Part shown: piece by piece, positions 1-33,972 of the stretch
How positions within the stretch are numbered: position 1 is the stretch's first letter
Layout: every line of letters starts with the position of its first letter
IMG/VR virus record: IMGVR_UViG_3300036770_002966
Span: 1 to 33,972 of that record
Origin: a virus
Length of the DNA stretch: 33,972 nt
Reading direction: 5' to 3' (one strand)
Program-made: the position numbers and the translations under genes
The notes under the pieces: model-generated
Told to the model about the DNA's origin: nothing
What the model saw: only the letters and a program-made list of their open reading frames with translations
The model's database searches: none

Positions 1-978
1 GGTTCTGGCTACATCATCTACAACAACGCCACTCAGACATCGGCGACACAGATCAATGTTTCGCACCTGACGTTCGACAATTTTGATGTTGACATCTTCC
101 TGACCCTGCTCGGTGTCGGCGACGTTCTAATAATTCAGGACTCGACAGCTTCAAACGATTATCAGAAGTGGGAGATCAGCTCGGCACCGACGAATCAGGC
201 CGGCTACATCGAATACCCCGTCACGCTTCTTGACAGCGGTGGTGACGGCACGACCGGCTTCGCCAACGACCTCGAGGTGCTGTTCGCCATCTCCACCCAA
301 GGTCCGCAGGGCCCACAGGGTGCGCAGGGTGCTACCGGCCCTCAGGGCGCCGAGGGACCGCAAGGACCACAGGGCGACACTGGCGCTCAAGGTGCACAAG
401 GCCCGCAAGGTGATACTGGTGCTCAGGGTCCACAAGGCGCCCAGGGCGACACTGGCCCGCAAGGCGACACTGGTCCCCAGGGAGCGCAAGGTCCACAAGG
501 TGACACTGGCGCTCAGGGTCCACAAGGCGCACAGGGTGACACGGGCCCGCAAGGTGCGACTGGGCCGCAAGGGGACATTGGTCCGCAGGGCGCTCAGGGA
601 GCTCAGGGCGCTACTGGAGCTCAGGGCCCGCAGGGCCCACAGGGTGCGCAGGGTGCGACAGGTCCGGCCGGCCCGCAAGGCGACACCGGCCCACAAGGCG
701 CACAAGGCGCACAAGGCCCGCAGGGTGCCGCTGGGGCTCAAGGTGCAACCGGTCCTCAGGGTGCAACTGGCCCTCAGGGACCTGAAGGCCCTCAGGGCGC
801 TACTGGCCCGCAAGGTGCCGAGGGACCGCAGGGTGCGACTGGCCCGCAGGGTGATCAGGGCCCGCAGGGTGCCGAGGGTGCGCAAGGTTCACAGGGCCCG
901 CAGGGTGCACAAGGCCCCCAGGGCGCTGACGGTGTTGATGCCAGCGCTTTCAATCCATTCCTACTCATGGGAGCATGA
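1..978 (+). CDS. Collagen-like tail fibre protein, 3' part (5' end outside the window)
   Basis: The reading frame is open from base 1 to the TGA at 976-978. The first 100 residues form a non-collagenous domain (begins GSGYIIYNN). From base 301 to 930 there are 70 uninterrupted Gly-X-Y triplets, dominated by GPQ, GAQ, GDT and GAT, followed by a 15-residue tail ending FNPFLLMGA. Uninterrupted triplets are the hallmark of a collagen triple helix, known from phage and prophage side fibres. Bases 1-651 align gap-free with 33195-33845 (about 24 differences in the first 300 bases, five of them changing residues), and 652-778 is identical to the window end. This is therefore either the same gene in a second strain or a duplicated segment. 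It probably completes the gene that starts at 32367. The large open frames in other phases and on the other strand here are by-products of the triplet code. Confidence 0.85.
652..778 (+). repeat. 127-bp exact repeat, copy 1 (identical to window end)
   Basis: These 127 bases are identical to 33846-33972. The base before the repeat differs (G at 651, A at 33845), and the other copy ends at the window end. A length of exactly 127 is what a de Bruijn assembler with k=127 leaves at a graph junction, so this is most likely the circular closure point rather than a biological repeat. It lies inside the collagen-like triplets. Confidence 0.9.
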
Positions 979-19874: not shown

Positions 19875-20032
19875 GCCGCCCTATCAGCGCCGAATGCGGA
19901 ACCCTCAGCGCCCACAAACGCCACCAACGTCACGGCGAACCGCCATGCGATAAATGTCGAGAAGCGTTCAATGTTTACCGCCGGCTTCGCTACGCCGCCC
20001 GCAAAGCCCCAGCCTACGACCCGTTTTCCTGA
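19871..20032 (+). CDS. Small CGT-type zinc-finger protein
   Basis: This 53-aa protein starts at a GTG overlapping the preceding stop (GTGA). The sequence CGTLSAHKRHQRHGEPPCDKC is a compact Cys2-His-Cys2-like module (C9, H18 or H21, C26, C29) followed by a basic helix (REAFNVYRRLRYAARK). The same module is fused to the C-terminus of the WhiB-like protein at 23897. Probably binds DNA or a protein partner. Confidence 0.65.
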   Translation: MSRPISAECGTLSAHKRHQRHGEPPCDKCREAFNVYRRLRYAARKAPAYDPFS

Positions 20033-20073
20033 GGGTCGTTGACGAACCGCCCAAACAAGGAGAAACTGTTACC

Positions 20074-20214
20074 ATGCCGTCCAGTAATACCGCCTACCGA
20101 TGCCTTGCGTGCAACCTCACATTCTTGAGGATCACGGACTATCAGAACCCCGCATTGCATCGGTGCATCATCCAACAGCATCCGTCAGCCTGGAACCGGC
20201 GAGGCCCGAAGTGA
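20074..20214 (+). CDS. Small zinc-finger-like protein
   Basis: This 46-aa protein has a strong Shine-Dalgarno (AAGGAG). YRCLACNLTF and LHRCIIQQH place C-x2-C about 19 residues before H-x-C, resembling a treble-clef or C2H2-like finger. An upstream in-frame start would overlap the previous gene extensively and lacks a ribosome site. Confidence 0.55.
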   Translation: MPSSNTAYRCLACNLTFLRITDYQNPALHRCIIQQHPSAWNRRGPK

Positions 20215-20360
20215 GCGCCCCGAACTGGTTTCTCGATATGCCGATTATCAGCGCCGGCCCCACGCTCGGTTTCACGATCGGCATCTTCTGGTTCGTTCGT
20301 CAATTGTGGCGGGCGATCCAGTTGGAGGCTGCGGAGGCCGAGAGACTGGAGAACCAGTGA
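20211..20360 (+). CDS. Small single-pass membrane protein
   Basis: This 49-aa protein uses a GTG overlapping the previous stop. One hydrophobic helix (PIISAGPTLGFTIGIFWFV) is followed by an amphipathic helix (RQLWRAIQLEAAEAERLENQ). Role unknown; it may be an early membrane effector. Confidence 0.5.
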   Translation: MSAPNWFLDMPIISAGPTLGFTIGIFWFVRQLWRAIQLEAAEAERLENQ

Positions 20361-20944
20361 AACGACCCATTAGTAACATTCTTGTTGCTATCACCAGCGT
20401 TACCATTCTTGGGACAGGCTTGATTGCCAGTGCCAAGGCCCCCGAAACCAACCCGACCCGACCCACACTCACCCGATACGCCACCGACCGAACCACAACC
20501 ACAACGTCGACCACGACAACAACGACCGCCCCAACGCCTCCGCCGTCCACCCTGCCACCCCTCGCTTTCGAGCCGAAGTGTCCGAACCTGATCGGGCCCG
20601 CCCGTTTCGCCGGCTTCCCCGAACACGAGCTCGAGCACCTGGACTATCTCGCCTGGCGTGAATCCCGCTGCGACATTGACCACGGCACCGGCCAACCTCG
20701 ATGCGCCCACAACCCCGACGATCCGGCCGGCGGCTCGTTTGGCGCCTGGCAAATCAACGCCTCCTGGGCCAAACCGAACCGCTGGAACCCCGACCCAGCC
20801 GGATACCTCGGCAACCTTGGCATCCTTGAAGAAGTCGGCCACCTCTGCGACTGGAACACCAACGCCCTCGCCGCCAAAGCCCTCTACGACTACTCCATCG
20901 CCACCCACGGCTACGACAAACGTTGGTGGCAGTGGAAGGTCTGA
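20357..20944 (+). CDS. Secreted/membrane-anchored lysozyme-like protein
   Basis: This 195-aa protein overlaps the previous gene (GTGA). Residues 7-28 form a signal or anchor segment (NILVAITSVTILGTGLIASA), residues 30-70 are a Thr/Pro linker (including a 12-residue Thr/Ser run), and residues 75-195 are a lysozyme/transglycosylase-like domain. E102 in AWRESRCD is the likely catalytic acid and GSFGAWQINASW (residues 126-137) matches the substrate-binding loop. Four cysteines (75, 105, 116, 164) could form disulfides outside the cell. It lies in the early region, not the lysis cassette, so a role in remodelling wall, superinfection exclusion or delayed lysis should be considered. Confidence 0.78.
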   Translation: MKRPISNILVAITSVTILGTGLIASAKAPETNPTRPTLTRYATDRTTTTTSTTTTTTAPTPPPSTLPPLAFEPKCPNLIGPARFAGFPEHELEHLDYLAWRESRCDIDHGTGQPRCAHNPDDPAGGSFGAWQINASWAKPNRWNPDPAGYLGNLGILEEVGHLCDWNTNALAAKALYDYSIATHGYDKRWWQWKV

Positions 20945-20997
20945 CACACCCATTTGCAATGATCTGACCCAACCCAACCCAGAAAGAGAAACCGCCC

Positions 20998-22551
20998 ATG
21001 ACAGACTTCAACCGTGACCGCTGGGGACGCCCACTGATCATCCCCACCGACGGTGGCAAACCCGTCCCCTACACCCGATTCAGTTCCCACGGCCAATGCC
21101 TTGAAGACCGCTTCGGCCTAGAAAAATGGAAGATTAGAACCGCTGGCAAAGGCTTGGCTTCTCGGCCTGATCTGTTTGCTCAGGTGGCCGCCTGCCCGCC
21201 CGACGACTCCCGCCGCCTCGACTCCCTCATGGAAGCCGCCCTCGAGGCCGGTGGGTCGTCGGTCGGTGCAGGACTCGGCACAGCCCTCCACGAATTCACC
21301 CAAAACTTCGATTTGGGTGTCTACAGCCTTGACGACATCCCCGAACCCTGGCGCCACGACGTTGAAGCCTACGCCGACACCCTTGAACGGTTCGGCTTCG
21401 TCATCGACCGGGAGTTGATCGAAGTGTCGTTGGTGAACGACGAACTGAAGTTGGCCGGTACCGCCGACCGGTTCTACGAACGAGCCGACGGCACCCTGGT
21501 CTGCGCTGACATCAAAACCGGCAAACAGATCGGTGATAACCCGCTCGCCTACATCGTCCAGTTGGCCGCCTACGCCAACTCAATGCGCTACGACATCGAA
21601 ACCGGCATCCGAGAAACCGTCGGGCCGGTCGACCTTGAGCACGGCATCCTCGTCCACCTGCCCTCCGGCCAAGCCCGCTGCGACATCTACCAAGTCGACC
21701 TCAGGGAAGGTTTGGAAATTGCGAAATTGGCGTCCCGTGTACGCACACAACAGAAGCGTCGTGGGCTAGTGTCCAATGTTGAGCCGACGGACGGCACACT
21801 AGAGGCTCCGGTCGCCGGATCAGCCGCCATCTCCCCAGAGGAGGCTGATCCGGCACCAAGCCGCCGAGAGTGGCTCGCCACCCGGATCGACATCATCCGA
21901 CAGCACCACGAAGCGTTCGAGTCGCTCCGCACCTTGTGGCCGCCCGACATTGCCACCCTGAAACAGTCGGATACGCACAGCGAAGTCGAGCTTGCTGTCA
22001 TCGCCGATTTGTTGGACCGCATTGAAGCGCTGTTCGGCCTCCCGTTCGGCGACTCGGCACCCAAGACCCCCAGCGAGCCGGAGAAGCCCGCAGAAGCCCC
22101 CACAAAGCCCGCTGAGCCGATCATCGACGAAGGCCCCGACGCCGACAAAACCAACATTGCCGATCTGCGTCGCATCCTTGCCGAACTGCCCGTGGAGCGG
22201 AAGGCGTGGATTCAAGCGCAGACAAAGCGGGCCAACTCGGCCGGCCACCCGATCAGCCTCAAACAGCTCCCAAGTTTGCGTCGGTATCACATTGCCCAAT
22301 TCTTGATCGCTGCCGCAGAATTCTCCGATGACGACCTCCTCCGAGCCGTCCTACGATATTTCACCGAACTGCCCCTAGACACAGGCGAAGCAATCGGCTA
22401 CGTTCTCGGCACGCTCAACACCGAAACCGCCACTCGAGCAGCAGCACTCACATTCGCCATCAACGCCGGAGACATCATCTTCGGCTACGACGACGACGGA
22501 ACACCCAGCCTCACCGGCCCGGTGGATCGCTACCAACCCAACCCAACCTGA
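20998..22551 (+). CDS. RecB/Cas4-like PD-(D/E)XK exonuclease with C-terminal extension
   Basis: This 517-aa protein has a nuclease core at residues 90-200 with GTALHEF (H98), LAGTADRF (D157), CADIKTGK (D171, K173) and QLAAYA (Q188, Y192), the standard RecB-like order. No Cas4 iron-sulfur cysteine set is evident. The remaining 280 residues include a Pro/Ala-rich linker near residue 360 and a helical domain of unknown role. Typical actinophage recombination/replication exonuclease, paired here with an OB-fold protein. Ribosome-site context GAGAAACCGCCC recurs at two other genes. Confidence 0.82.
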   Translation: MTDFNRDRWGRPLIIPTDGGKPVPYTRFSSHGQCLEDRFGLEKWKIRTAGKGLASRPDLFAQVAACPPDDSRRLDSLMEAALEAGGSSVGAGLGTALHEFTQNFDLGVYSLDDIPEPWRHDVEAYADTLERFGFVIDRELIEVSLVNDELKLAGTADRFYERADGTLVCADIKTGKQIGDNPLAYIVQLAAYANSMRYDIETGIRETVGPVDLEHGILVHLPSGQARCDIYQVDLREGLEIAKLASRVRTQQKRRGLVSNVEPTDGTLEAPVAGSAAISPEEADPAPSRREWLATRIDIIRQHHEAFESLRTLWPPDIATLKQSDTHSEVELAVIADLLDRIEALFGLPFGDSAPKTPSEPEKPAEAPTKPAEPIIDEGPDADKTNIADLRRILAELPVERKAWIQAQTKRANSAGHPISLKQLPSLRRYHIAQFLIAAAEFSDDDLLRAVLRYFTELPLDTGEAIGYVLGTLNTETATRAAALTFAINAGDIIFGYDDDGTPSLTGPVDRYQPNPT

Positions 22552-22568
22552 CCTTCAAGGAGGCCACA

Positions 22569-22910
22569 ATGTCCATCTGGGACGACCCATCAATCCGCAC
22601 CGGCGGCGACTACATCAAGTTCGAAACCCCCGGTGACAACGTCAACGGCACCGTCACCTTCGTCGGCATCCACACCTTCGAAGACGGCAAGCGTGCCGCC
22701 AAACTCATCATCAACACACCCGAAGGTGAAAAGACACTCACCGCCGGCCAAGTCCAGTTGGCATCCAAGCTCGCTGAGGCCCGACCCGAAACCGGTGACC
22801 ACATCGACATCACCTACGTTCGCTCCGAAAAGCGGGCCGGAGGCAAAACCCTCAAGCATTTCGCTGTCGAAGTGAAGAAGGGTGCCCCCAAGTCAGCCGA
22901 CGACTTCTAG
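22569..22910 (+). CDS. Single-stranded DNA-binding-like protein (OB-fold)
   Basis: This 113-aa protein follows a strong Shine-Dalgarno (AAGGAGG). Strands GDNVNGTVTFVGIHTFEDGKRAAKLIIN and DHIDITYVRSEKRAG fit an OB-fold. The C-terminus is KSADDF, similar to the acidic tips by which SSB proteins recruit partners. Adjacent to the exonuclease, it is likely the phage ssDNA-binding or recombination mediator. The family match is inferred from pattern, not a definitive motif. Confidence 0.7.
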   Translation: MSIWDDPSIRTGGDYIKFETPGDNVNGTVTFVGIHTFEDGKRAAKLIINTPEGEKTLTAGQVQLASKLAEARPETGDHIDITYVRSEKRAGGKTLKHFAVEVKKGAPKSADDF

Positions 22911-22985
22911 TCGGCGGTCCGGCGCCTGGAAGCCCATCCTCCGACTCCCCCTGGGTGGCGACGTTCGATCCGTCGGCCGGACACC

Positions 22986-23129
22986 ATGAAGAAAACTGAC
23001 CTCCAAGCCATCCGTAACGTCTTCCGTTATGTCTCAACCGCCGACCCCGCCATCCAGGCTGAGGTTCTGCGTCTTGATGCTGTGATCGCCCAACAACTCC
23101 AACCCAAGGAGAAGAAAACCCATGAGTGA
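22986..23129 (+). CDS. Short protein, unknown function
   Basis: This 47-aa helical protein (TDLQAIRNVFRYVSTADPAIQAEVLRLDAV) ends in a Lys-rich tail and overlaps the next gene by eight bases. A Shine-Dalgarno is not obvious, which lowers confidence. The gap upstream (22911-22985) contains no other feature. Confidence 0.5.
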   Translation: MKKTDLQAIRNVFRYVSTADPAIQAEVLRLDAVIAQQLQPKEKKTHE

Positions 23130-23364
23130 AACCGAAGTCGGCTACTGGCAAGCCATCGTCGACGACCAACGAGTATCCAACGAACGGCTGTCCGAAGCCC
23201 TCGCCGACGCACGCACTGAAATCACCCGACTCAGGGAAATCGTCGCTGCGGCCGCCGTCTACGTCACACACCTCGCCAACAACGCCGACGGCAACGAGAT
23301 CACCACAGCGTTCAACCAGTTACACGCCAAAGTGACCACATATCTCGAGATGAAAACACAATGA
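23122..23364 (+). CDS. Small coiled-coil protein
   Basis: This 80-aa protein is predicted mostly helical (VSNERLSEALADARTEITRLREIVAAAAVYV), with a Shine-Dalgarno AAGGAG. It overlaps both neighbours. Function unknown. Confidence 0.55.
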   Translation: MSETEVGYWQAIVDDQRVSNERLSEALADARTEITRLREIVAAAAVYVTHLANNADGNEITTAFNQLHAKVTTYLEMKTQ

Positions 23365-23507
23365 GATACGCCGTGACCGCCCTGATCATCCTCGGCCTCT
23401 CCAACCTGATCGCCATCGGCCTCTACCACCGCCAGCGTCAAGAAGTCCGACGGCTCCGCAAATTCTTCCGCATCACACTCCACACAGAAACCCGAGCCAA
23501 CCAATGA
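23361..23507 (+). CDS. Small membrane protein A
   Basis: This 48-aa protein overlaps the previous stop (ATGA). One transmembrane segment (YAVTALIILGLSNLIAIGLY) is followed by a basic tail (RQRQEVRRLRKFFR). Role unknown. Confidence 0.5.
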   Translation: MRYAVTALIILGLSNLIAIGLYHRQRQEVRRLRKFFRITLHTETRANQ

Positions 23508-23629
23508 GCCTCGCCCTCGCCCTCCTCGGCGGCCTCGTCACCGGATTCGCCCTCGGGGCCCTCGCCGCCACCGTCGGACACTTGAACAAACAAATCGCTG
23601 ACGCCGAAATCAACGGCCACCGCCGCTGA
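23504..23629 (+). CDS. Small membrane protein B
   Basis: This 41-aa protein (ATGA overlap) has one glycine-rich hydrophobic helix (LALALLGGLVTGFALGALAA) and a short polar tail. The Gly-x3-Gly spacing could support helix packing. Together with the preceding gene it forms a pair of overlapping membrane miniproteins. Confidence 0.5.
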   Translation: MSLALALLGGLVTGFALGALAATVGHLNKQIADAEINGHRR

Positions 23630-23907
23630 TGTTCCCCCACAAAGACGCCTCAAACTACAAATTCATCCACCTGTACGGTGGCCCGCTCGACGGCAAAATC
23701 GTGCCTATCCAGTTGGACGGCTACAGCATGACCGTCACCATCGGCGTCAACACCCCCGAAGACATCGAAGACGGCCTCGGCGACCCTGATAAGCCGTTAC
23801 GCCTCGAAACACTCACCTACGCCCCCACCAGCGTTTACGACATCGACAACCACATCTGGCGGCTCTTGGAGCCCACGATCAAAGGAGAAACCGCCCATGA
23901 ACCGTGA
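23629..23907 (+). CDS. Conserved small phage protein
   Basis: This 92-aa protein shares one base with the previous stop (TGATG). FIHLYGGPLDGKIVPI near residue 12 and VYDIDNHIWRLLEP near the C-terminus are patterns seen in a small early-gene family of actinophages. Function unknown. It overlaps the WhiB gene by 11 bases. Confidence 0.6.
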   Translation: MFPHKDASNYKFIHLYGGPLDGKIVPIQLDGYSMTVTIGVNTPEDIEDGLGDPDKPLRLETLTYAPTSVYDIDNHIWRLLEPTIKGETAHEP

Positions 23908-24340
23908 ATGGATGAAACAAGCCGCCTGCCGAGGCATGGACCCCGGATTCTTCATGCCCGAGCGAGGAGACGCCAACCTCATCAAAGCCGCCAAACAAAT
24001 CTGCGACACCTGCCCCGTCAAGAACGAATGCCGAGACTACGGTCTTGAAGAACACCGACGCTCCGACCTTGACGGCATCTTCGGCGGCCTCACCAAAATC
24101 GAACGGCTCCGCATCCTCCGCACCGAAAACCTACCCCGCCGACGCCAAACACCACTCAACCGGCGAAACCTTATCGACGATTATCTACTCCGACCGTGCG
24201 GAACAGAAAGCGCCTATAGCCGCCATTTGCGACGCAACGAAAAACCTTGTGAAGCGTGCAGGAAAGAACACGCCCGCCTGGCCGCCGAATATCGCCAACT
24301 TCGTGGTAGGCCAAGTCGAGCAAAAACTAAAGTGGCCTGA
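23897..24340 (+). CDS. WhiB-family transcription factor with C-terminal zinc module
   Basis: This 147-aa protein has the WhiB iron-sulfur cysteines C11, C36, C39 and C45 (C, then CDTC-x5-C) and the family turn GIFGG (usually GVWGG). WhiB proteins bind the housekeeping sigma factor and a [4Fe-4S] cluster to reprogram transcription, and are limited to actinobacteria and their phages. The C-terminal 50 residues contain CGTESAYSRHLRRNEKPCEAC (C101, H110, C118, C121), the same module as the separate 53-aa gene at 19871. Phage WhiB proteins can block host sporulation or septation and exclude competitors. Start context GGAGAAACCGCCC. Confidence 0.85.
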   Translation: MNREWMKQAACRGMDPGFFMPERGDANLIKAAKQICDTCPVKNECRDYGLEEHRRSDLDGIFGGLTKIERLRILRTENLPRRRQTPLNRRNLIDDYLLRPCGTESAYSRHLRRNEKPCEACRKEHARLAAEYRQLRGRPSRAKTKVA

Positions 24341-24675
24341 TGGCAAATCCGCAGAAACGCAAAGGGGACGCAGCCGAACGTGAACTCGCCCACAAACTCA
24401 ACGACCTTCTGGGCCTCCCAGTTCGCCGCAAACTCGGCGCCGGCCGAACCGACGACACCGGCGACATTGACGGACTTCCCAACTGCACTGCTCAAGCCAA
24501 AAACTATGCCGACGTACTTCGAGCGATCCGTGAAGGACTTGCCGCCGTGGAGGTTCAGAGGGACAACGCCGGAACAACTCACAGCGTTCTGTTCGTCCGT
24601 CGCAGGGGCGGCGAGTGGATCGCCGTCCAAAGCCTAGAGAGTTGGGCCACGATGTTTCGTGAGACCCTTGATTGA
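24340..24675 (+). CDS. PD-(D/E)XK nuclease, Holliday-junction-resolvase-like
   Basis: This 111-aa protein starts on the last base of the WhiB stop. KGDAAERELAHKL (E13, E15), RTDDTGDIDG (D42, D44) and AQAKNY (Q52, K54) form the active site seen in archaeal-type (Hjc-like) and phage resolvases. It probably trims or resolves branched DNA before packaging. Confidence 0.78.
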   Translation: MANPQKRKGDAAERELAHKLNDLLGLPVRRKLGAGRTDDTGDIDGLPNCTAQAKNYADVLRAIREGLAAVEVQRDNAGTTHSVLFVRRRGGEWIAVQSLESWATMFRETLD

Positions 24676-24743
24676 CCTATTTCTGACCGCCGTCTGCGTG
24701 GTCTACAGTTTCATTCTTATCGCCGCACTTGGAGGTGCCACCA

Positions 24744-27335
24744 GTGACCGAAACCGCCCACAACCCCGACCCCATCCACCAAGAAGCCCTCAGACTCGCC
24801 GCCCACGGACTCCACATCCTCCCAATCAAACCCGGCCACAAACGGCCACCAATGACCGCCTGGCAGAACGCCGCCACCACCGACCCACGCACCGTCGATA
24901 ACTGGTACACCGGCCTCTACAGGGGCCACGGCATCGGCATCGCCACCGGCCACGCAGGCCTATTCGTTCTTGACATCGACGAACACCACCCCGAAGCATC
25001 CGGCCACGACACCCTTGAGCAACTCATCGCCGAACACGGCCCGCTACCCGACACCTGGCAAGTCGCCACCGGCAGTGGTGGAACCCACTATTACCTGCGT
25101 TCACCGATTCCGATCACCAATGACGCCGGCCGCAGGTTGGGCCCCGGCATTGATATTCGTGGAATCGGCGGCCAAGTCCTCGCACCACCCACCATCCATC
25201 CCAACGGCCAGCCCTACACCTGGATCATCGGCCACGAACCCGACGACCTACCCCTCGCCGACGCCCCCGACTGGCTCCTCAAACTCCTGAAACCTGAACT
25301 ACAACCCGCCACCACCACCCCACAGATCAACAAAACCCGAAACCATGATCTATGGGACGAGCTTGACGACTCACCCGCCGCCCACTACAACAACAACCAC
25401 ACCTGGAACGAACTTCTCACCGCCGACGGCTGGCAGTTAGATCACATCTCATCAAACGGCGAACAGCACTGGACCCGCCCCGGCAAAGACAACGGCACCT
25501 CAGCGACCCTCGGCTACCAAGGCCGAGATGCGCTCACCGTGTTCACCAGCGCCCTCACATGGCTCCCAGAAGGCACCTACTCACGTTTCGGCTACTACGC
25601 CTGCCGACACCACAACGGTGACCGTTCCCAGGCCGCACGGGCCATCAGGCAAGAGACCCGCAACACCATAACCCTTCCCCCGTCGGTAGAGAACTGCAAC
25701 GACGACTGGCCCGAACCCACCCCACTCAACCAACCCACCCCCAGCCCCGAATTCCCCACCCACACCCTCCCAACCTGGATCACCAACTACACCCAACAAA
25801 TCGCCGACAACCTCCAAGTCGCCCCCGACCTACCCAACACCCTCGCCCTCGGCGCCCTCTCCGTCTGCGCCCTCGGAAACACCAAAATCCACTACCGACG
25901 CAACAACTGGACCCAACCACTCAACATCTACGCATCCGTCGCCCTCCCACCCTCCGCAGGCAAATCACCCGCCAAAGCCGCCATGTTCGCCCCCCTCGAA
26001 CAACTCGAAATCCGACGCCTCCAACAAGCCCAACAAAACAAACACCACAACGAGTCAGCCAAACGCATCCTCGACAAACGCCTACGAGACCTCGAAGAAA
26101 AACTCGCCAAACTCCCACCCGGCAGCGATGAAGCACTCGTCACCCAACACCTCCTCAACGACACCATCAGCGACCTCGCCCAACACGCACACACACCATC
26201 CGGCCGGCTCCTCGCCGACGACGCCACCACCGAAGCCCTCGGAGTCGCCCTCGCCGAAGCAGGCGGCAACATCGCCGTCATCTCATCAGAAGGTGGCATC
26301 TTCGACCGCATGGCCGGCCTCTACTCAGAAGGCCAAATCAATCTCGACCTATACCTTGAAGCCTGGTCAGGTGGCCGATACGTCGTCGACCGCATCAAAC
26401 GAGACCCCATCAACATCCCCTCAGCCAACCTCGTCGTCATCACCACCATCCAACCCCACACCCTTAACGAAATCGGCGCCCGAAAAGCATTCGCCGGTAG
26501 GGGCCTCACCGCCCGCTTCCTCCTCTGCCAACCAGCCTCAAACGTCGGCACCAGAGACAGACTCCGACACTCCAACGCCGACCAACACGCCCAAACCACC
26601 TACGAAGCCCATTTGACCGACATCGCCGAAACCCACCACGGCAAACCCCGCACCCTCACCCTTGATCCCGAAGCCGACGAAACGTTCGCCCACTGGGACC
26701 AAGCGCTCGAGAACCGCTGCGGCCCCGGCCACGAGCTGGAACACCTCAACGAATGGGTCGGCAAACTTCGGGCCAACGTCATCCGCATCGCCGGCCTACT
26801 CCACCTCGCCAACCACCACCCCGACGACCTCGTCGGCCCTGAGACGATCCGAGACGCCATCACCCTCGGCAACTACTACCTCGATCACATGATCGCCATC
26901 TCCGACGGCTGGGGAGTCGACGAAAGCATCATCCAAGCCAAGAAACTGTTGCAGTGGGCAGAACGAAGCGACACCACCCAAATCACCCTCCGAGAACTTA
27001 TGCGAAGCAACCAACGAGCGTTCCCCGACCTCGACTCCATCCGTGGCCCATTGACGATGCTGATCGAAAATGGGTGGGTTCGCCCTGTGGATAACCTGCC
27101 GATCAGTTTTGTTCCGGCCCGAGGAAAACCATCGCCACTTTTGGAATTTCATCCGAATGTGAAGCCAAAAACCGCTAAACAGTCTGAAGTTGTCACGCAT
27201 GTCATGCATGTCACCATAAGGGGGGAATCAGATAACTCACTCACTCTAAAAGAGACAACCTCCTCGCCCCCCACCCCCGATGACATGCATGACATGCGTG
27301 ACAACCCACCCGACCCCCTCGACCTCCTCGACTAG
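24744..27335 (+). CDS. Primase-polymerase / DUF3987 helicase-like replication protein
   Basis: This 863-aa protein starts at the GTG preceded by GGAGGT with correct spacing; a TTG 15 bases upstream lies too close to that site. Residues 1-180 are the AEP-type primase-polymerase: VLDIDE (D77, D79), GSGGTHYYLR (H115), GIDIRGIGGQVLAPPTIHP (D137). Residues 360 onward match DUF3987, with an ATP-binding loop LPPSAGKSP (about 402-409), SSEGGIFDRM and TTIQPHTLNEI. This is a single-polypeptide replication initiator/helicase. No replicative DNA polymerase is encoded, so the host replisome must be recruited. The last 50 codons contain a large inverted repeat, probably the origin. The middle has extreme C-rich codon use. 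Confidence 0.85.
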   Translation: MTETAHNPDPIHQEALRLAAHGLHILPIKPGHKRPPMTAWQNAATTDPRTVDNWYTGLYRGHGIGIATGHAGLFVLDIDEHHPEASGHDTLEQLIAEHGPLPDTWQVATGSGGTHYYLRSPIPITNDAGRRLGPGIDIRGIGGQVLAPPTIHPNGQPYTWIIGHEPDDLPLADAPDWLLKLLKPELQPATTTPQINKTRNHDLWDELDDSPAAHYNNNHTWNELLTADGWQLDHISSNGEQHWTRPGKDNGTSATLGYQGRDALTVFTSALTWLPEGTYSRFGYYACRHHNGDRSQAARAIRQETRNTITLPPSVENCNDDWPEPTPLNQPTPSPEFPTHTLPTWITNYTQQIADNLQVAPDLPNTLALGALSVCALGNTKIHYRRNNWTQPLNIYASVALPPSAGKSPAKAAMFAPLEQLEIRRLQQAQQNKHHNESAKRILDKRLRDLEEKLAKLPPGSDEALVTQHLLNDTISDLAQHAHTPSGRLLADDATTEALGVALAEAGGNIAVISSEGGIFDRMAGLYSEGQINLDLYLEAWSGGRYVVDRIKRDPINIPSANLVVITTIQPHTLNEIGARKAFAGRGLTARFLLCQPASNVGTRDRLRHSNADQHAQTTYEAHLTDIAETHHGKPRTLTLDPEADETFAHWDQALENRCGPGHELEHLNEWVGKLRANVIRIAGLLHLANHHPDDLVGPETIRDAITLGNYYLDHMIAISDGWGVDESIIQAKKLLQWAERSDTTQITLRELMRSNQRAFPDLDSIRGPLTMLIENGWVRPVDNLPISFVPARGKPSPLLEFHPNVKPKTAKQSEVVTHVMHVTIRGESDNSLTLKETTSSPPTPDDMHDMRDNPPDPLDLLD

Positions 27336-27344
27336 TTATCCACA
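27189..27344 (+). other. Candidate replication origin: inverted iteron arms plus DnaA box
   Basis: A 25-bp perfect inverted repeat lies at 27189-27213 and 27281-27305. Each arm carries three copies of TGTCA (or its complement) at 9-bp spacing, unit TGTCAYGCA. The 67-bp spacer contains G6 (27220-27225) and C6 (27267-27272), which can extend the stem, and an A/T-richer middle (27226-27257). TTATCCACA, the exact consensus DnaA box, follows at 27336-27344 just after the primase stop. Iterons, dyad symmetry and a DnaA box beside the initiator gene are hallmarks of theta origins. No assay is available, so origin function is inference; an operator for a regulator of the downstream genes is an alternative. 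Confidence 0.6.
27336..27344 (+). promoter_or_regulatory. Consensus DnaA box TTATCCACA
   Basis: An exact 9-of-9 match to the classical DnaA box, immediately after the primase TAG (27333-27335) and 31 bases from the inverted repeat. One box alone could arise by chance, but the position in the only intergenic gap next to the iterons makes it meaningful. Confidence 0.6.
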
Positions 27345-27360
27345 GGCCAAGGACACCACC

Positions 27361-27831
27361 ATGACCAACCCCACACACCAACTCCAAGCCACCCTCCGAA
27401 CCCTCACCGCACTCGCCCACCGCTACCCCACCTGGCGCCGCTGGATCACCGACAACCTCCCCGACGGCTACCCCACCGCCAGCGACAGCCCCGGCGGCTC
27501 GAGCAACATCAGCAACCCCACCCTCAACACCACCCTCGCCCGCCAACAACTACACACACTCCTCACCGACGCCGCCCGAACCATCGAACAACTCCACGAC
27601 CTCACCAACCGACTCCACAACCTCACCCAACAAGGCCCCAAACAAACCGACCACAAAGGCCAACGATGCTCCGGCACCATCGACCCCACCTGCAACAAAC
27701 TCGCCGACGGACGCCACCACAAAACCGGCCTCTGCGACCAATGCTGGCAACGCCACTACCGCCAACAACGAAACACTGAAACAACCAGGCAAACACCACA
27801 AACCACCCAAAAACGTGGTACTATCCGATAG
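27361..27831 (+). CDS. Helical protein with C-terminal zinc ribbon
   Basis: This 156-aa protein starts at an ATG 25 bases after the primase stop, preceded by a weak ribosome site (AAGGACACC). The N-terminal 100 residues are helical (LQATLRTLTALAHRYPTWRRW, later ARTIEQLHDLTNRLHNL). Residues 100-130 have C-x6-C ... C-x2-C (CSGTIDPTC, CDQC), a likely zinc ribbon, and the tail is Gln/Thr-rich. Strong C-rich codon use (first 60 bases: 5 G, 33 C). It may act at the adjacent origin candidate (inference). Confidence 0.6.
   Translation: MTNPTHQLQATLRTLTALAHRYPTWRRWITDNLPDGYPTASDSPGGSSNISNPTLNTTLARQQLHTLLTDAARTIEQLHDLTNRLHNLTQQGPKQTDHKGQRCSGTIDPTCNKLADGRHHKTGLCDQCWQRHYRQQRNTETTRQTPQTTQKRGTIR
27816..27824 (+). 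promoter_or_regulatory. Possible extended -10 promoter TGGTACTAT
   Basis: The TGN extension plus TACTAT (27819-27824, same hexamer as the promoter at 19277) is located so that transcription would begin near 27831, next to the TTG at 27832. No recognisable -35 is present, and the following gene lacks a Shine-Dalgarno, consistent with leaderless start. Moderate to low certainty. Confidence 0.35.
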
Positions 27832-27843
27832 TTGGTCGCCCTC

Positions 27844-28515
27844 ATGGCAAAACCCCAATATTCCGGCCCCTGGCAACGCATCCGCCGAACCATCCTCGAA
27901 CGAGACAACCACCTCTGCCAAATCGCAGGCCCCGGCTGCACCACCACAGCCACCCAAGTCGACCACATCAAACCCGTCCACAACGGCGGAGCCTGGTACG
28001 ACCCCAACAACCTTCGAGCCTCCTGCGCCACCTGCAACAACAAACGAGCCGACAACCGGCCCACCGAACAATGGCGCACCGCCCGCACCCGCATCGCCCT
28101 CGTCATCGGCCCACCAGGCGCAGGAAAAACAACCTGGGTGGACAACAACAAAGGCCCCCACGATCTAGTCGTCGACTACGACAAACTGGCGGGGGCAATT
28201 GGCGGGGCCCCCAACCCAGCCCAGGACGCCCCCACCAACCCCCTCCACGAAGCCACCAACGCAGCACGAAACGCAATCCTCCGTGGCCTACGCCAAGGAA
28301 AGTTCAACGTCGGACGGGCCTGGATTATCTCTGCGAATCCGAAAGCAGAGGAGATGTTTCCCTACCACCGGGTCGTGGTGGTGGACCCAGGCCCCGAAGA
28401 AGTCAAACGACGATTGGCCGAGGCCGGTCGACCAGCCCGGTATCGTCAGCTCGTCGATCAGTGGTACGCCACGAGGAGAGGTGAGGTCAGCGATGACGGC
28501 TCGAGACCCTGGTAG
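27844..28515 (+). CDS. HNH endonuclease fused to P-loop kinase-like domain
   Basis: This 223-aa protein (from ATG; a TTG at 27832 is an in-frame alternative) has residues 1-80 as an HNH nuclease: C25 and C32, VDHIKP (H41), NLRASCATCNNKRAD (N56, C61, C64). Residues 84-210 form a P-loop phosphotransferase: LVIGPPGAGKT (Walker A, K95), VVDYDKLAGAIG after it, and a lid-like VKRRLAEAGRPARYRQLV near the C-terminus, as in polynucleotide-kinase-like enzymes. HNH proteins next to terminase help cut cos ends in HK97-like phages. A kinase domain on the same chain could phosphorylate the new 5' ends (inference). Confidence 0.8.
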   Translation: MAKPQYSGPWQRIRRTILERDNHLCQIAGPGCTTTATQVDHIKPVHNGGAWYDPNNLRASCATCNNKRADNRPTEQWRTARTRIALVIGPPGAGKTTWVDNNKGPHDLVVDYDKLAGAIGGAPNPAQDAPTNPLHEATNAARNAILRGLRQGKFNVGRAWIISANPKAEEMFPYHRVVVVDPGPEEVKRRLAEAGRPARYRQLVDQWYATRRGEVSDDGSRPW

Positions 28516-28521
28516 GAGGGA

Positions 28522-28553
28522 CGGGGGTACCCCCGCAGCGGATTTGGGGCCCC
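28522..28553 (+). other. Palindromes upstream of terminase: possible cos/pac region
   Basis: The 96-bp gap 28516-28611 contains a perfect 14-bp palindrome CGGGGGTACCCCCG (28522-28535) and an 8-bp palindrome GGGGCCCC (28546-28553). It lies between the HNH gene and the terminase genes and coincides with the reversal of G/C strand bias. These are features expected of a packaging site, but a terminator is another possibility since no T-run follows. Confidence 0.4.
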
Positions 28554-28611
28554 GCCAAGACCCCACAAGCCCCGTCTTTATCTCCCCGGCTCGGAAACTT
28601 TCGGGGGCATC

Positions 28612-29403
28612 GTGAAAGTACTCAGCCTCGGCGCCGGCGTTCAGTCGTCAACGCTCCTGCTCATGGCGTGCCGTGACGAGATCGAAAGACCCGACGTTGC
28701 GATCTTTGTGGACCTCGGTTGGGAACTTCCAGCCACCTACGAATGGCTGAACGGCGTGCTGATCCCCGAAGCCGACCGGGCCGGGCTTGAACTGCGTGTC
28801 GTGAAGTCGGCCGACATTCGATCTGATCTGATTCAGGACGACGGCAAGCGGATCATGGCGCCGTTGTTCGTGCGTCGGCCTGATGGCAAGCGGGGCCAGT
28901 TGCAGCATCAGTGTTCTCGGCAACTCAAAATGAAGCCGGTGATGCGTGAGGCCCGAAAGATGATGGGTGCCGGTGAGCGTGGGGTGCTGCGGGCCGATCT
29001 GTTCCTTGAGGTGTGGCTCGGGATTTCGACCGATGAGACTGGCCGCATTCGTGGTGATGCGCCGACTCGGACCGCTTGGCGGTATCCGCTCTGTGAGATT
29101 GGGATGTCACGGTCGGATTGTGATGCTTGGTTGGCTGATCGTGGTTTTGGTCAGCCACCAAGGTCGAGTTGTGTCGGCTGTCCGTTCCGGTCGATGGCGT
29201 CGTGGCGGGAGATGAAGACCAGGATGCCCGATGTTTTTGCTGATGCTGTCGAGGTGGATCGCCTGGTTCGGGACAAGTGGCGTAATCGTGGCGAGGTCTT
29301 CTTGCATTCGTCGTTGCAGCCGTTGGATCAGGCGATCACGGAGGAACCGCCGTCACTTTTCTCGGATTTTGAGTTTGAGTGTTCGGGAATGTGTGGTGTT
29401 TGA
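28612..29403 (+). CDS. PP-loop (PAPS-reductase-like) ATPase
   Basis: This 263-aa protein starts at a GTG preceded by GGGGG. The adenine-nucleotide alpha-hydrolase fold begins with VLSLGAGVQSSTLL (loop residues 7-13, a variant of SGGxDS), followed by AIFVDLGWELPATYEWL. Cysteines C101, C187, C190, C257 and C261 could hold an iron-sulfur cluster or catalyse sulfur transfer. The family activates substrates by adenylylation, and relatives act in sulfate reduction, tRNA thiolation and DndC-type DNA phosphorothioation. No other dnd genes are seen. Role in the phage unknown; base or backbone modification is possible. First gene on the G-rich side of the skew switch. Confidence 0.78.
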   Translation: MKVLSLGAGVQSSTLLLMACRDEIERPDVAIFVDLGWELPATYEWLNGVLIPEADRAGLELRVVKSADIRSDLIQDDGKRIMAPLFVRRPDGKRGQLQHQCSRQLKMKPVMREARKMMGAGERGVLRADLFLEVWLGISTDETGRIRGDAPTRTAWRYPLCEIGMSRSDCDAWLADRGFGQPPRSSCVGCPFRSMASWREMKTRMPDVFADAVEVDRLVRDKWRNRGEVFLHSSLQPLDQAITEEPPSLFSDFEFECSGMCGV

Positions 29404-29705
29404 TGGCCGCTAAAAAGAAGCCTGCGACACCGAAACTGGCTTATGGCCGGAACCGAACTGCCGTCGAGGAGATGTTGGCGGCGATGCGTCAGGCCGGTTT
29501 GCTCGAGAACATTGACGCCGCTCGGGTGGCGATGTTGCAGGCTTTGGCTGATGCTGTAGATATGGAGCCGACGAATGCTTCGCTTTGGCGGGAGTATCGT
29601 GCGGCTGAATCTTCGATCAGAGAGAACACCGCCCATGACCAAGACGATTTCAAAGAGCTCCTTGCTTCATTGTCTGCCGAGGTTCGCGACTCCTCGTCGG
29701 CCTGA
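29403..29705 (+). CDS. Small terminase subunit
   Basis: This 100-aa protein overlaps the previous stop by one base. The helical pattern RNRTAVEEMLAAMRQAGLLENIDAARVAMLQALADAVD followed by NASLWREYRAAE and ELLASLSAEVRD is a recognisable actinophage TerS family. It binds the packaging site and delivers DNA to the large subunit, with which it overlaps by 71 bases. Confidence 0.8.
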   Translation: MAAKKKPATPKLAYGRNRTAVEEMLAAMRQAGLLENIDAARVAMLQALADAVDMEPTNASLWREYRAAESSIRENTAHDQDDFKELLASLSAEVRDSSSA

Positions 29706-31047
29706 GCGCCGGAATCGGGGTCGTGAGGTGGCGGCGATTGCGAAGCAGTTAGGTCAGCCGTTGATGCCGTGGCAGCAATTGGTTGCCGATGTGGCGTCCG
29801 AGCTTGATCCTGAGACTGGTTTGCCAGCGTTTCGTGAGGTTGTGGTCACGGTGCCTCGCCAGTCGGGGAAGACGACGATGGTGTTGGCGTATGAGTTGCA
29901 TCGTGCGTTGATGTGGGGTCGGCCGCAGCGGATTGCGTATACGGCGCAGACTGGTTTTGATGCTCGACGGAAGTTGATTGACGATCAGGCGCCGATTTTG
30001 TTGGGGTCGCCTTTGTCGGCTGCGGTTGAGAAGGTGCAGAAGGCGCAGGGTAATGAGGCGATTGTTTTCAAGAATGGGTCAAGGATTGATGTGTTGGCGT
30101 CGTCGGAGTCGGCGGGTCACGGTCGGACGCTCGATCTCCCGATTCTTGATGAGGTTTTCGCCGATGCGGATGACCGGCGTGAGCAGGCTTTGTTGCCGGC
30201 GATGTCCACTCGGCCGGATGCGCAGTTGTTCGTTGTGTCAACGATGGGGACGGAGGCAAGCACATATCTAAACCGAAAGGTGGAGACAGGTCGGAGCGCC
30301 GTCGTCGAGGGGTTGGCAAGTGGGATCGCATATTTCGAGTGGAGCGCCGAGGCCGACGCCGATATAGATGATCCCGATACTTGGCGGTCTTGTATGCCCG
30401 CTCTTGGTCATACGATCACATTGGCGACGGTCGAGCACGCTCGTCGGACGATGTCGGAGGGTGATTTTCGTCGGTCAATGTTGAATCAGAAGACGATTTC
30501 TGATGAGCGAGTGATCCCGGTTGGGGTGTGGGGTGAGGTGTGTTCGGAGGATGTCGCACCGAGCGGTCGTTTGGTGTTTGCATTGGATGTGAATCCTGAG
30601 CGGTCGGCGTCGGCGGTGGCGGTGGCTGATGGGTCGGGTCGGGGTGAGTTGGTGGAGTTTCGGTCTGGTGTCGGCTGGGTGGTCGATCGGGTCGTGGAAT
30701 TGTGCAAGAAGTGGGAGGCGTCGGTTCGGTTGGATGCGTATTCGCCGGCCGGGTCGTTGGCTGATGAGCTCGTGGCTCGTGGTGTGCGGGTGGATCGGTA
30801 TGCGACTCGTGAGGTGTCGTATGCGTGCGGCTCGTTTTTTGATCGTTTGATGGATCGGAAGGTTTCGGTTCGGCGTCACGCAGCGTTGGATGAGGCGGCG
30901 GCTGGTGCTCGTCGCCGGTCGACTGGTGATTCGTGGGTGTGGGCTCGCAGGGATGCGGAGTGTGATGTGTCGCCGTTGATCGCTCTCACGTTGGCGTTGG
31001 ATGCGAAGGCGTCGGCTGAACCTGAGTTGTGGGTGGCGTTCGAATGA
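29635..31047 (+). CDS. Large terminase subunit
   Basis: This 470-aa protein has Walker A VPRQSGKTT (residues 73-81), Walker B LPILDE (D172, E173) and C-motif VVSTMG (near residue 205). The C-terminal nuclease begins with VFALDVNPERSASAVAVAD, whose first Asp is the usual metal ligand. It powers DNA packaging and cuts the concatemer. The start at 29635 has the GAGAACACCGCCC context; an upstream start would extend further into TerS. Very G-rich codon use (30601-30660: 33 G, 9 C). Confidence 0.92.
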   Translation: MTKTISKSSLLHCLPRFATPRRPERRNRGREVAAIAKQLGQPLMPWQQLVADVASELDPETGLPAFREVVVTVPRQSGKTTMVLAYELHRALMWGRPQRIAYTAQTGFDARRKLIDDQAPILLGSPLSAAVEKVQKAQGNEAIVFKNGSRIDVLASSESAGHGRTLDLPILDEVFADADDRREQALLPAMSTRPDAQLFVVSTMGTEASTYLNRKVETGRSAVVEGLASGIAYFEWSAEADADIDDPDTWRSCMPALGHTITLATVEHARRTMSEGDFRRSMLNQKTISDERVIPVGVWGEVCSEDVAPSGRLVFALDVNPERSASAVAVADGSGRGELVEFRSGVGWVVDRVVELCKKWEASVRLDAYSPAGSLADELVARGVRVDRYATREVSYACGSFFDRLMDRKVSVRRHAALDEAAAGARRRSTGDSWVWARRDAECDVSPLIALTLALDAKASAEPELWVAFE

Positions 31048-31862
31048 GGCTCGGTCCCGATTCGGCTCGCTACATTTTGGCGGGGCAGGGGAAACCGGTA
31101 GCGAAGCCGTTTCATCTGCGGGTGTTGTTGCCGTGGATTTGTGAGGATGTCGAACGCCGTTGGCGGGTCGTGTGGCTTGTTTCGTGGCCGTTGCTGATTG
31201 GTTTGACGGCCTGGTTCGGCTGGTTGCGGGGCCTCGAGCTTGGCCCGGCCGTGGCCGCTGGTGTGTTGGTGGCTGCGCTTCCCGGTGTGTGGGGGCCGCC
31301 GGTCGTTCGGCCGGTCGGTGTTGATCTGCCTGGGATAGTCATTGCTCTCGGCTCGCTGGTGGCATTTGAGTATGGCTGGTGGCCGTTGGGTGTCGTCCTG
31401 GTGGTGTTTGCGGCGCTCACGAAGGAGTCGATGCCGGTTTGGGCGGCGTTGTGGTCGTGGTCGATTTGGCCGCTGGTTGGCCTGGTGGCTCCGTTGGTGG
31501 TGGGTTTGGTGCGGAAGCCGGTGATCGATGAGGTGACCGCCCATCAGAATCTGCGTGAAGTCCATGATCATCCGGTGCGGACGGCGTTGCAGGCGCATCG
31601 TGGTCAGTGGCGGGATGCGTGGATCATGCTGGCGCCGTGGGGTGTGTGTTTGGCCGGTCTTGTCGAGCCGTCGTGGCCGGAGATGGTGGCGGTTGTGTGC
31701 GCATACGCTCAGTTGCTTGTGGCGACCGATACGGTGCGCTTGTTGCATACGGCGGCGGGTGTGCCGTTGGCGTTGGCATCGGTGGCGGTGATTCCGGCAT
31801 CATGGTTGGTGTTGGCGGTTGTGGTTCATGTGTTTTGGTGGCGTAAGCCGCAGTTGATTTAG
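31044..31862 (+). CDS. Multi-pass integral membrane protein
   Basis: This 272-aa protein overlaps TerL (ATGA). I count about seven or eight hydrophobic segments (near residues 42-62, 66-86, 96-112, 113-126, 132-157, 192-208, 211-228, 238-266). The stretch VLVVFAALTKESMPVWAAL is reminiscent of GT-C-type membrane glycosyltransferases (a Lys-Glu pair after a TM helix), but the catalytic Asp signature is not secure. Alternatives are a superinfection-exclusion or lysis protein. Location between terminase and fibre genes is unusual. Confidence 0.7.
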   Translation: MRLGPDSARYILAGQGKPVAKPFHLRVLLPWICEDVERRWRVVWLVSWPLLIGLTAWFGWLRGLELGPAVAAGVLVAALPGVWGPPVVRPVGVDLPGIVIALGSLVAFEYGWWPLGVVLVVFAALTKESMPVWAALWSWSIWPLVGLVAPLVVGLVRKPVIDEVTAHQNLREVHDHPVRTALQAHRGQWRDAWIMLAPWGVCLAGLVEPSWPEMVAVVCAYAQLLVATDTVRLLHTAAGVPLALASVAVIPASWLVLAVVVHVFWWRKPQLI

Positions 31863-31871
31863 GAGGCTGTT

Positions 31872-32015
31872 GTGAAGGATCGTTTGGGCACGATGTTGCA
31901 GGGTTTTGGTTTGATGGTGGCAGCGGTTTCGGTTGGTGCGATTTATGCGCCGGCGGGTGGGATTGTTGCTGCTATCGGTTTGGTCCTGTTCGGGATCGCC
32001 GCTGAAAAGGATTGA
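31872..32015 (+). CDS. Small membrane protein
   Basis: This 47-aa protein starts at a GTG after a near-perfect Shine-Dalgarno (AGGAGG). Two hydrophobic stretches (LMVAAVSVGAIYAPAGG and IVAAIGLVLFGIAA) form a helical hairpin. It could be a second holin-like protein or a partner of the preceding membrane protein. Confidence 0.55.
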   Translation: MKDRLGTMLQGFGLMVAAVSVGAIYAPAGGIVAAIGLVLFGIAAEKD

Positions 32016-32016
32016 G

Positions 32017-32370
32017 ATGGCTGGTTTGGCTGGCACATACAACATCATTGCTGATCAGGGCGCCACGTTCGGTCGCACGATCACCTGGAATGACGCCGAC
32101 GGTGACCCCGTCGACCTTGACGGCTATACGGCCCGAATGCAGGTTCGGTCAATTGTGTCGTCGGCTGAAGTAGCGCTCGAGCTCACGACCGAGAACGGCC
32201 GGATTGCTCTCGGTGGCGCTTTGGGGACGATCACGTTGACGGTGCCCGCCTCGGCGATGGACGATATTGGGGGTGGCAATTATGCCTATGATTTGGAGTT
32301 GGTGAACGGGTCTGATGTGACTCGTTTGTTGATGGGTTCTTTTACGGTGCGGGCTGAGGTGACTCGATGA
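32017..32370 (+). CDS. BppU-like fibre/baseplate adaptor protein
   Basis: This 117-aa all-beta protein starts one base after the previous stop. [37 protein letters not shown] and [20 protein letters not shown] are the characteristic strands of the BppU N-terminal family, which links receptor-binding proteins to the baseplate. It overlaps the fibre gene (ATGA), so it probably anchors the collagen-like fibre to the virion. Confidence 0.75.
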
Positions 32371-33972
32371 GTTTTCAGGTGAACGATCAGCCGCCGAAGG
32401 TAACCGTCACCGAAGAAAACGTCAGTGCTTCTATCACAATGTCGGGTCAGGGGCCGCAAGGTCCGCAAGGCCCGCAGGGTGTTCAGGGCCCGGTTGGTCC
32501 GCAGGGTGCGACCGGCCCGCAGGGCGCTACTGGCGCTCAGGGTGTGCAAGGCCCTCAAGGTGCGACGGGTGCGACGGGCGTTCAAGGCCCCGAGGGTATT
32601 CAGGGTGCGACAGGCCCACAAGGCGCCCAGGGCGCCCAAGGTGCGACGGGTGCGCAGGGTGCGACCGGCCCGCAAGGCTCGACAGGCCCACAAGGTGATC
32701 AGGGGCCTCAGGGTATTACTGGCGCTCAGGGTCCGCAGGGTGCGCAAGGTCCGACAGGCCCCCAGGGTTCAGCCGGCCCCCAAGGCCCACAAGGCGAAAC
32801 TGGCGCCCAGGGACCGCAGGGCGATACCGGCCCTCAGGGTGCGACTGGCCCTCAGGGAGCGCAAGGTGACACTGGCCCGCAGGGCGCTCAGGGTGCGCAA
32901 GGCCCACAGGGCGATACGGGTGCTCAGGGTGCTCAAGGCCCGCAGGGCGATACTGGTCCGCAAGGTGACACCGGTCCACAAGGCCCGCAGGGCGACACTG
33001 GCGCACAAGGCCCACAGGGCCCGCAAGGTGACCTCGGCCCACAAGGCGACACAGGTCCGCAAGGCCCACAAGGTGCGCAAGGAGCTACGGGTGCTACCGG
33101 CGCTCAGGGCCCTCAAGGTGCGCAGGGCGCTGAAGGTCAATCAACGTCGTTCTATGACTACAAGATCAAGACGACCTCGACCTCAGGCGATCCCGGTTCG
33201 GGCTACATCATCTACAACAACGCCGCACAGACATCGGCGACACAGATCAATGTTTCGCATCTGACGTTCGATAATTTTGACGTTGACATCTTCCTCACCC
33301 TGCTCGGTGTCGGCGATGTTCTGGTAATTCAGGATTCGACAGATTCGAACGATTATCAGAAGTGGGAGATCAGCTCGGCGCCGACGGATCAGGCCGGCTA
33401 CATCGAATACCCCGTCACGCTTCTTGACAGCGGTGGTGACGGCACGACCGGCTTTGCCAACGACCTTGAGGTTATATTCGCAATCTCGACGCAGGGCCCG
33501 CAGGGCCCGCAGGGTGCGCAGGGCGCTACTGGCCCTCAGGGTGCCGAAGGTCCGCAAGGCCCACAGGGCGATACGGGTGCTCAGGGTGCTCAGGGCCCAC
33601 AGGGCGATACGGGTGCTCAAGGTCCGCAAGGAGCCCAGGGCGATACCGGCCCGCAAGGCGACACCGGGCCTCAGGGAGCGCAAGGTCCGCAAGGTGATAC
33701 AGGTGCGCAGGGTCCGCAAGGCGCTCAGGGCGATATTGGCCCTCAGGGCAATACCGGGTCTCAAGGCGCACAGGGCGCACAAGGTCCCCAAGGCGCTACG
33801 GGTGCGACTGGTGCTCAAGGCCCTCAGGGCGATATCGGTCCGCAAGGTGCGACAGGTCCGGCCGGCCCGCAAGGCGACACCGGCCCACAAGGCGCACAAG
33901 GCGCACAAGGCCCGCAGGGTGCCGCTGGGGCTCAAGGTGCAACCGGTCCTCAGGGTGCAACTGGCCCTCAGG
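32367..33972 (+). CDS. Collagen-like tail fibre protein, 5' part (runs off window end)
   Basis: The gene begins ATGA-overlapped with the adaptor gene. Residues 1-28 are a non-collagenous head ([19 protein letters not shown]). Residues 29-257 are Gly-X-Y triplets, residues 258-376 a folded 119-residue insertion ([16 protein letters not shown]..), and triplets resume from 377 to the window end. Joining 33972 to 779 closes an in-frame 601-aa gene with a second helix of 70 triplets and a 15-residue tip. Proline is confined to the X position, and Thr often occupies Y (GDT, GAT). This trimeric rod is likely the host-contact fibre. Confidence 0.88.
33846..33972 (+). repeat. 127-bp exact repeat, copy 2 (window end)
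   Basis: Identical to 652-778 and ending exactly at the window end. Interpreted as the assembly overlap that closes a 33,194-bp circle, with bases 1-651 as an alternative version of 33195-33845. Confidence 0.9.

Follow-up and report, generated by a model that had tools for sequence, protein, structure and literature searches.

Where does replication begin in the phage of IMG/VR record IMGVR_UViG_3300036770_002966, and what recognises the starting point? Throughout this work, the window is the whole of this linear virus record (33,972 bases). We analyzed a site at the 3' end of a presumed initiator gene, with a primase-polymerase (Prim-Pol) domain, a DUF3987 domain and a winged helix, which a first-pass annotation had proposed as a bidirectional origin recruiting host DnaA. 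Our results indicate that the site is very probably the replication origin of the phage, of the inverted-iteron kind known from phage-inducible chromosomal islands (PICIs) and Staphylococcus aureus pathogenicity islands (SaPIs), and that it is embedded in the last part of the coding sequence for its own initiator. The origin proposal is supported by a DNA layout conserved in relatives, whereas the emphasis on DnaA has to shift: the reader is probably the winged helix of the phage protein, with DnaA as an auxiliary. The features concerned are the following (positions in the window):

24729..27335, + strand: presumed initiator gene, with Prim-Pol, DUF3987, winged helix and disordered tail (Pfam, AlphaFold)
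26922..27158, + strand: predicted winged-helix domain (amino acids (aa) 732-810), presumed iteron reader (AlphaFold; helix-strand-helix-helix-strand-strand)
27086..27094, - strand: exact DnaA box TTATCCACA (top strand TGTGGATAA), conserved in relative L001
27189..27213, + strand: left iteron cluster, three TGTCA cores with a 9-bp period
27220..27225, + strand: G6 block (AAGGGGGG), kept in close relatives
27225..27260, no strand assigned: AT-rich segment (61% AT), candidate unwinding element
27267..27278, + strand: CCCCCCACCCCC block, near-invariant in relatives
27281..27305, - strand: right iteron cluster, inverted, three cores with a 9-bp period
27336..27344, + strand: exact DnaA box, adjoining the stop codon

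The anatomy described in the first-pass annotation was recovered. The arms of the perfect 25-bp inverted repeat (27189-27213 and 27281-27305) are fully complementary over 25 nt and lie 67 nt apart, in frame within the last ~50 codons of the primase gene. This is the longest perfect inverted repeat of the window (loops up to 150 bp), while in 20 dinucleotide shuffles of the whole window the longest reached 14 at most. Each arm carries three TGTCA cores spaced by 9 bp (at 27191, 27200 and 27209, plus their mirror images), and within the record TGTCAYGCATGTC is confined to this site, with two copies on either strand. The G6 and C6 blocks of the spacer are also present, at 27220-27225 and 27267-27272, the latter within CCCCCCACCCCC. 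The AT content of 27225-27260 is matched by 2.0% of the 36-bp stretches of the record and by 0.8% of those in 19-29.5 kb; the phage is GC-rich and the enrichment between the arms is modest. Two iteron sets flanking an AT-rich region, as in PICI and SaPI origins, are found in the window and equally in its relatives.

The layout is common to L001, L048, L053, L070, L083, L085, L090, L122 and L124, at the same place in each; the L123 contig breaks off ahead of the right cluster. For the window and eight of these relatives, a statistic for inverted 9-bp iterons was higher than in any of 200 shuffles (L001 and L123 were unscored). The iterons themselves vary by phage (TGTCAYGCA, TGTCGGTCA, TGTCGCGCA, GTGTCGTCC, TGCGCGCCA, TGCGTACCA, TGCGTNNCA). 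In L001, whose protein is 84% identical to that of the window, both arms have been altered together to TGTCGGTCA iterons, the right arm being truncated by the contig end. L048, L053 and L070 (about 54% protein identity) carry TGTCGCGCA iterons with several left clusters, two DnaA boxes between the clusters and a shared GGGGGG...CCCCCCACCCCC core; GTGTCG-type iterons are found in L085 and L123, and TGCG-type iterons in L083, L090, L124 and L122. Left and right clusters match within genomes but not across iteron types: pairs from the same genome had a mean score of 20.6 and off-diagonal pairs one of 7.5, and only 2 of 5040 permutations paired them equally well. The CCCCCCACCCCC block (27267-27278) barely varies among relatives with differing iterons. 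It reads GTG in the template strand and is perhaps a priming start or a helicase boundary element.

Both enzymatic domains of the encoded protein score above the curated Pfam cut-offs: Prim-Pol (PF09250, aa 20-182, E 1.5e-42) and DUF3987 (PF13148, aa 363-725, E 1.1e-85), the latter being a predicted helicase because it substitutes for known helicases behind such primases (PMC5862659). AlphaFold models of eight window and locus sequences place a winged-helix arrangement at aa 732-810 (predicted local distance difference test (pLDDT) about 80), followed by an iteron-encoded C-terminal tail that is predicted to be disordered (pLDDT 23-42). When the domain was modelled alone, its best structural matches were the winged helices of Zur, PerR, Fur and TFIIE (Z 8-9), which supports the predicted fold and points to no particular family. 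A PDB sequence search with the helicase and the winged helix found no relative, and a fold search with the helicase part, a low-confidence model, gave weak matches to AAA+ proteins of the minichromosome maintenance (MCM) type.

Comparison of the window with L001 bears on the question of the reader. Their helicases are 93% identical, their winged helices 67% and their iterons agree at 6 of 9 positions, the DNA identity falling right at the start of the winged helix. Divergence of both winged helix and repeats, with 93% of the helicase kept, is expected if the winged helix reads the repeats. In the two pairs with identical iterons and near-identical helicases (L053-L087 and L083-L084), the winged helices are 98-99% identical. 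These sequence comparisons are suggestive of winged helix and iterons changing together. The main reader of the 9-bp iterons is probably the C-terminal winged helix of the phage protein itself.

As to DnaA, the exact box TTATCCACA annotated at 27336-27344 was confirmed right after the TAG stop codon, but a second exact box (27086-27094) had been overlooked. These two are the only exact boxes in the whole record and they lie on either side of the inverted repeat; across eight genomes, 10 of the 14 exact boxes lie within 350 bp of the core. An origin of the oriC type, dependent on DnaA only, was rejected: two boxes are present in the window and none in the L083 and L090 genomes. A different arrangement was observed on the contig G014, a 34.9-kb phage (L119/L120), in which 17 of 21 DnaA-box-like 9-mers (TTRTCCACA with no more than one mismatch) fall in the last 135 and first 287 bases, end clusters that resemble an oriC-like DnaA-box array in a phage.

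Base composition and contig ends add two further features downstream of the gene:

28294, no strand assigned: minimum of the cumulative GC skew (GC-skew analysis)
28516..28611, no strand assigned: probable packaging end (cos) region, placed between the HNH and small-terminase-like genes by comparison with where contigs of relatives end

The cumulative GC skew switches in the neighbourhood of the origin, but its minimum lies about 1 kb downstream of the repeats. With all genes on the + strand, the third-position GC skew passes from -0.88 (27361-27831) to +0.63 (29575-31047); up to 28.3 kb the + strand is strongly enriched in C and A, and beyond that point in G and T. In the core-clade relatives the minimum falls 0.1-1.0 kb downstream of the core, except in L001, whose contig ends inside the site (where contigs end at the site, the adjacency of their ends was assumed). 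The sign of the skew fits forks departing from the region in both directions; end-resection was discarded as its cause by reasoning, the sign that it predicts being opposite to that observed. The term "bidirectional" is an inference that the switch fits, although the switch lies 0.1-1.0 kb downstream of the core and near the probable packaging end. Across 20000-32500 the third-position skew of the window is extreme (GC to -0.88, AT to +0.80), with its flip near 28.3 kb. In G002, G003 and G011 the contig stops in the interval that separates the HNH gene from the small-terminase-like gene, and in G003 the start of an Illumina adapter is present at that point, so that a physical genome end is probably located there. 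Altogether, the skew supports an origin in this neighbourhood without separating the iterons from cos. The assemblies of L001, L084 and L123, in turn, end within or beside the inverted repeat, so that short-read assembly of phages probably often breaks at this origin.

Several observations weigh against an origin at the iterons that is read by the winged helix. The phages compared are kin, hence not independent trials. Over all pairs, iteron similarity correlates with winged-helix identity (0.52) and to nearly the same degree with helicase identity (0.49), and L048 and L053 share iterons despite just 65% identity of their winged helices. Four relatives (L083, L090, L124 and L122) have no exact DnaA box near the origin, and the skew switch, lying ~1 kb downstream and near the probable cos, cannot pinpoint the iterons. 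The distribution of the boxes also modifies the proposed recruitment of host DnaA: the two exact boxes speak for it, but because the L083/L090/L124 subgroup has iterons without a box, the role of DnaA at the site looks, from sequence, auxiliary rather than principal.

Other functions have been considered for the repeats. They could bind terminase as a packaging signal (cos/pac), given that HNH and terminase genes lie about 1 kb off and that the contig ends described above, one of them with adapter, place a physical end close by. That end is nevertheless probably 0.4-1.3 kb from the repeats. Phages and plasmids alike, among them a Streptomyces plasmid, have the repeats at the 3' end of a primase-helicase gene regardless of the genes downstream; as the DnaA boxes and the parallel with plasmids and PICIs also point to replication, we regard packaging as highly improbable. 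It is unlikely, too, that the site is an autoregulatory operator or control locus, comparable to plasmid inc or the P4 crr iterons, with replication starting elsewhere, for instance near 28.3 kb. The skew minimum at 28,294 instead of 27,250, the persistence of left-type skew through 27.3-28.3 kb and the extra direct clusters of L053, L070 and L085 would agree with such a locus; its position at the 3' end of the gene and not on the promoter side would not, nor would the finding that no DnaA box of the window lies near 28.3 kb, and mirrored clusters around an AT-rich core with DnaA boxes are the anatomy of an origin.

The inverted repeat might otherwise act as an RNA or DNA hairpin (a terminator, an attenuator or a stem-loop origin of the pRN1 type). 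Its single strand folds at -57.9 kcal/mol (z -10.5), and pRN1 relies on a stem-loop of 100 nt on the 3' side of its Prim-Pol gene (PMC4234260). In the relatives, however, the complementarity of the arms decays (1-5 mismatches in 26) while the TGTC cores and their period are retained, and most of them carry additional direct iteron copies without a pairing partner; the pRN1-type origin was rejected on these grounds and, with no Rfam match to the element either, a structural role seems very unlikely. Finally, the arms are translated in frame, and the VTHVMHVT/MHDMRDN tail could itself be the selected feature. Yet within single genes one iteron is read in two codon frames and yields unrelated peptides, MSRMSR and VAHVAH in L053 and L070 or CAPCAP and ARHARH in L083, and the frame of a given iteron also varies between genes. 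The occurrence of the same repeat in two frames argues that the DNA is conserved and not the peptide tail, the translated repeats being by-products. Where the first-pass annotation had looked to relatives keeping the peptide and losing the DNA symmetry, the opposite was seen, with the layout kept and the peptide changed. As the tail is moreover predicted to be disordered, selection at the protein level has an almost negligible probability.

Beyond the core clade, a DUF3987 gene followed by mirrored 9-bp TGTC/GACA iterons was found in L132, in phage NatCom_43819 and in an 18-kb Streptomyces plasmid (L137, NZ_CP107792); these iterons exceeded all 200 shuffles and, in such distant relatives, lie just 3' of the stop codon. 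Related repeats also occur in Javan191 and in two plasmids, one from Tsukamurella and one from Geminocystis, but are not scored by the 9-bp statistic; likewise, it misses L093, L095, L135, L138 and L139, in which repeats of differing spacing or orientation are visible by eye. L091, a Prim-Pol protein with a different ATPase, has iterons in its tail nonetheless. An iteron-pattern scan of IMG/VR returned 78 loci, most of them unrelated acidic Asp-Met-Gly-Asp coding repeats; mirrored copies occurred in three (L020, L053 and L070), all at the 3' end of a primase/helicase gene. A scan with TAAGGGGGG gave one additional match, L082, which is unrelated. In L020 (1890-1997), mirrored TGTCACCCA iterons stand in the reverse arrangement directly 3' of a primase/helicase-like open reading frame (ORF) without a Pfam match; this locus is a second independent case of the layout. 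The iterons of Arthrobacter phage Eileen, homologous in the N-terminal Prim-Pol, were not significant (11 of 200 shuffles equally good). T1-like and other proteobacterial DUF3987 helicases (Shfl1, XCL1123, Avpx2) showed no iterons by the 9-bp statistic; the TLS paper likewise reports none and mentions four tandem repeats in the lambda ori (PMC11447400). No description of such a site for DUF3987 was found in open-licence papers.

That an origin can lie within an initiator gene or immediately behind it is already established (lambda O; PICI/SaPI rep-ori); the present site stands out by its overlap with coding sequence, by its DnaA boxes and by how fast its iteron specificity changes. The lambda ori also has its iterons within the initiator gene O, but these are direct 18-bp iterons in mid-gene and the initiator is not known to have helicase or primase activity. 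The alpha protein of satellite phage P4 unites primase, helicase and origin binding in one protein, although its primase is of the Toprim type and its ori is not known to be embedded in the gene end. In iteron plasmids such as RK2, P1 and R6K, iterons are usually 17-22 bp long. They are mostly direct, and the Rep proteins of these plasmids are not helicase-primases; the resemblance lies in the combination of iterons, DnaA boxes and an AT-rich melting region with a winged-helix reader (PMC4980987). By comparison, the 9-bp iterons of the window are exclusive to the site and the two clusters match within genomes, while a DnaA box near the iterons is present in the window and not universal in relatives. 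In SCCmec, the C-terminal domain of the initiator helicase Cch2 also binds short iterons beside its own gene (PMC7581432), but with three AAGTG repeats, a separate primase and no coding overlap. The initiator of pRN1 shares the Prim-Pol-helicase-winged-helix order and an origin on the 3' side of its gene, in that case a stem-loop outside the gene and without iterons (PMC4234260).

The closest parallel is with PICIs and SaPIs (SaPIbov1, SaPI1, EfCIV583, EcCICFT073). Their origins consist of two iteron sets around an AT-rich region, 3' of rep, and pri-rep-ori segments support plasmid replication experimentally (PMC6092414); the iterons are recognised by the C-terminal domain of Rep, as in SaPI Rep and Cch2 (PMC6092414, PMC7581432). 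Those elements are satellites with the origin downstream of the stop codon, whereas here the origin belongs to a tailed-phage genome and lies within the coding sequence, in the clade, or just after the stop, in distant relatives. The initiator here is a Prim-Pol-DUF3987 protein and not one of the SaPI Rep types, and DnaA boxes, GC-rich flanking blocks and fast iteron change are further differences. The record is itself no PICI, for it includes a set of phage structural genes with capsid, portal-like and terminase functions.

As for the rest of the record, no DNA polymerase gene besides the Prim-Pol domain was found among the selected ORFs scanned, the record being possibly incomplete, and Rfam and tRNA scans across the window gave no matches. 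WhiB-like genes and plasmid matches suggest that the host is perhaps an actinobacterium; scanned genome contigs contained no relative and thus provide no link to a host or prophage. A PAPS-reductase-like gene (28612-29403) separates the HNH/AAA gene from the terminase genes; this insertion is shared with L001 and was undetected at that place in the other close relatives. Collagen-like Gly-Pro-Gln repeats occupy both ends of the window (1-978 and 32425-33972; 87.6% alike over 782 bp), representing either two tail-fibre-like gene copies or an assembly break within a single repeat array.

We propose that the Prim-Pol/DUF3987 protein would bind both mirrored iteron clusters through its C-terminal winged helix and thereby load two helicase rings facing opposite ways. 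The AT-rich segment between the clusters would melt, with host DnaA assisting at the flanking boxes where these are present; priming by the Prim-Pol domain may then take place in the melted region, perhaps at the GGGGGTGGGGGG/CCCCCCACCCCC block, after which host replication proteins would extend what are presumably two forks. It is also conceivable, though we put this forward tentatively, that a self-contained and exchangeable specificity cassette occupies the final ~400 bp of the gene, with winged helix and origin next to each other in one frame, CCCCCCACCCCC being maybe the primer start of Prim-Pol.

The presence of this layout, together with the DUF3987 helicase, in environmental tailed phages and in a Streptomyces plasmid suggests a broad replicon type. 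For DUF3987, still an unnamed domain, a natural DNA target can be read from sequence, which opens the loading of the helicase and priming by Prim-Pol to in vitro tests. The overlap of gene and iterons in one frame offers a natural series of altered iterons with altered readers, useful for deriving a recognition code and for the study of replication exclusion between phages. If the cassette reading were true, a single step could give a phage a new replication specificity, and phages could diverge into groups akin to incompatibility groups.
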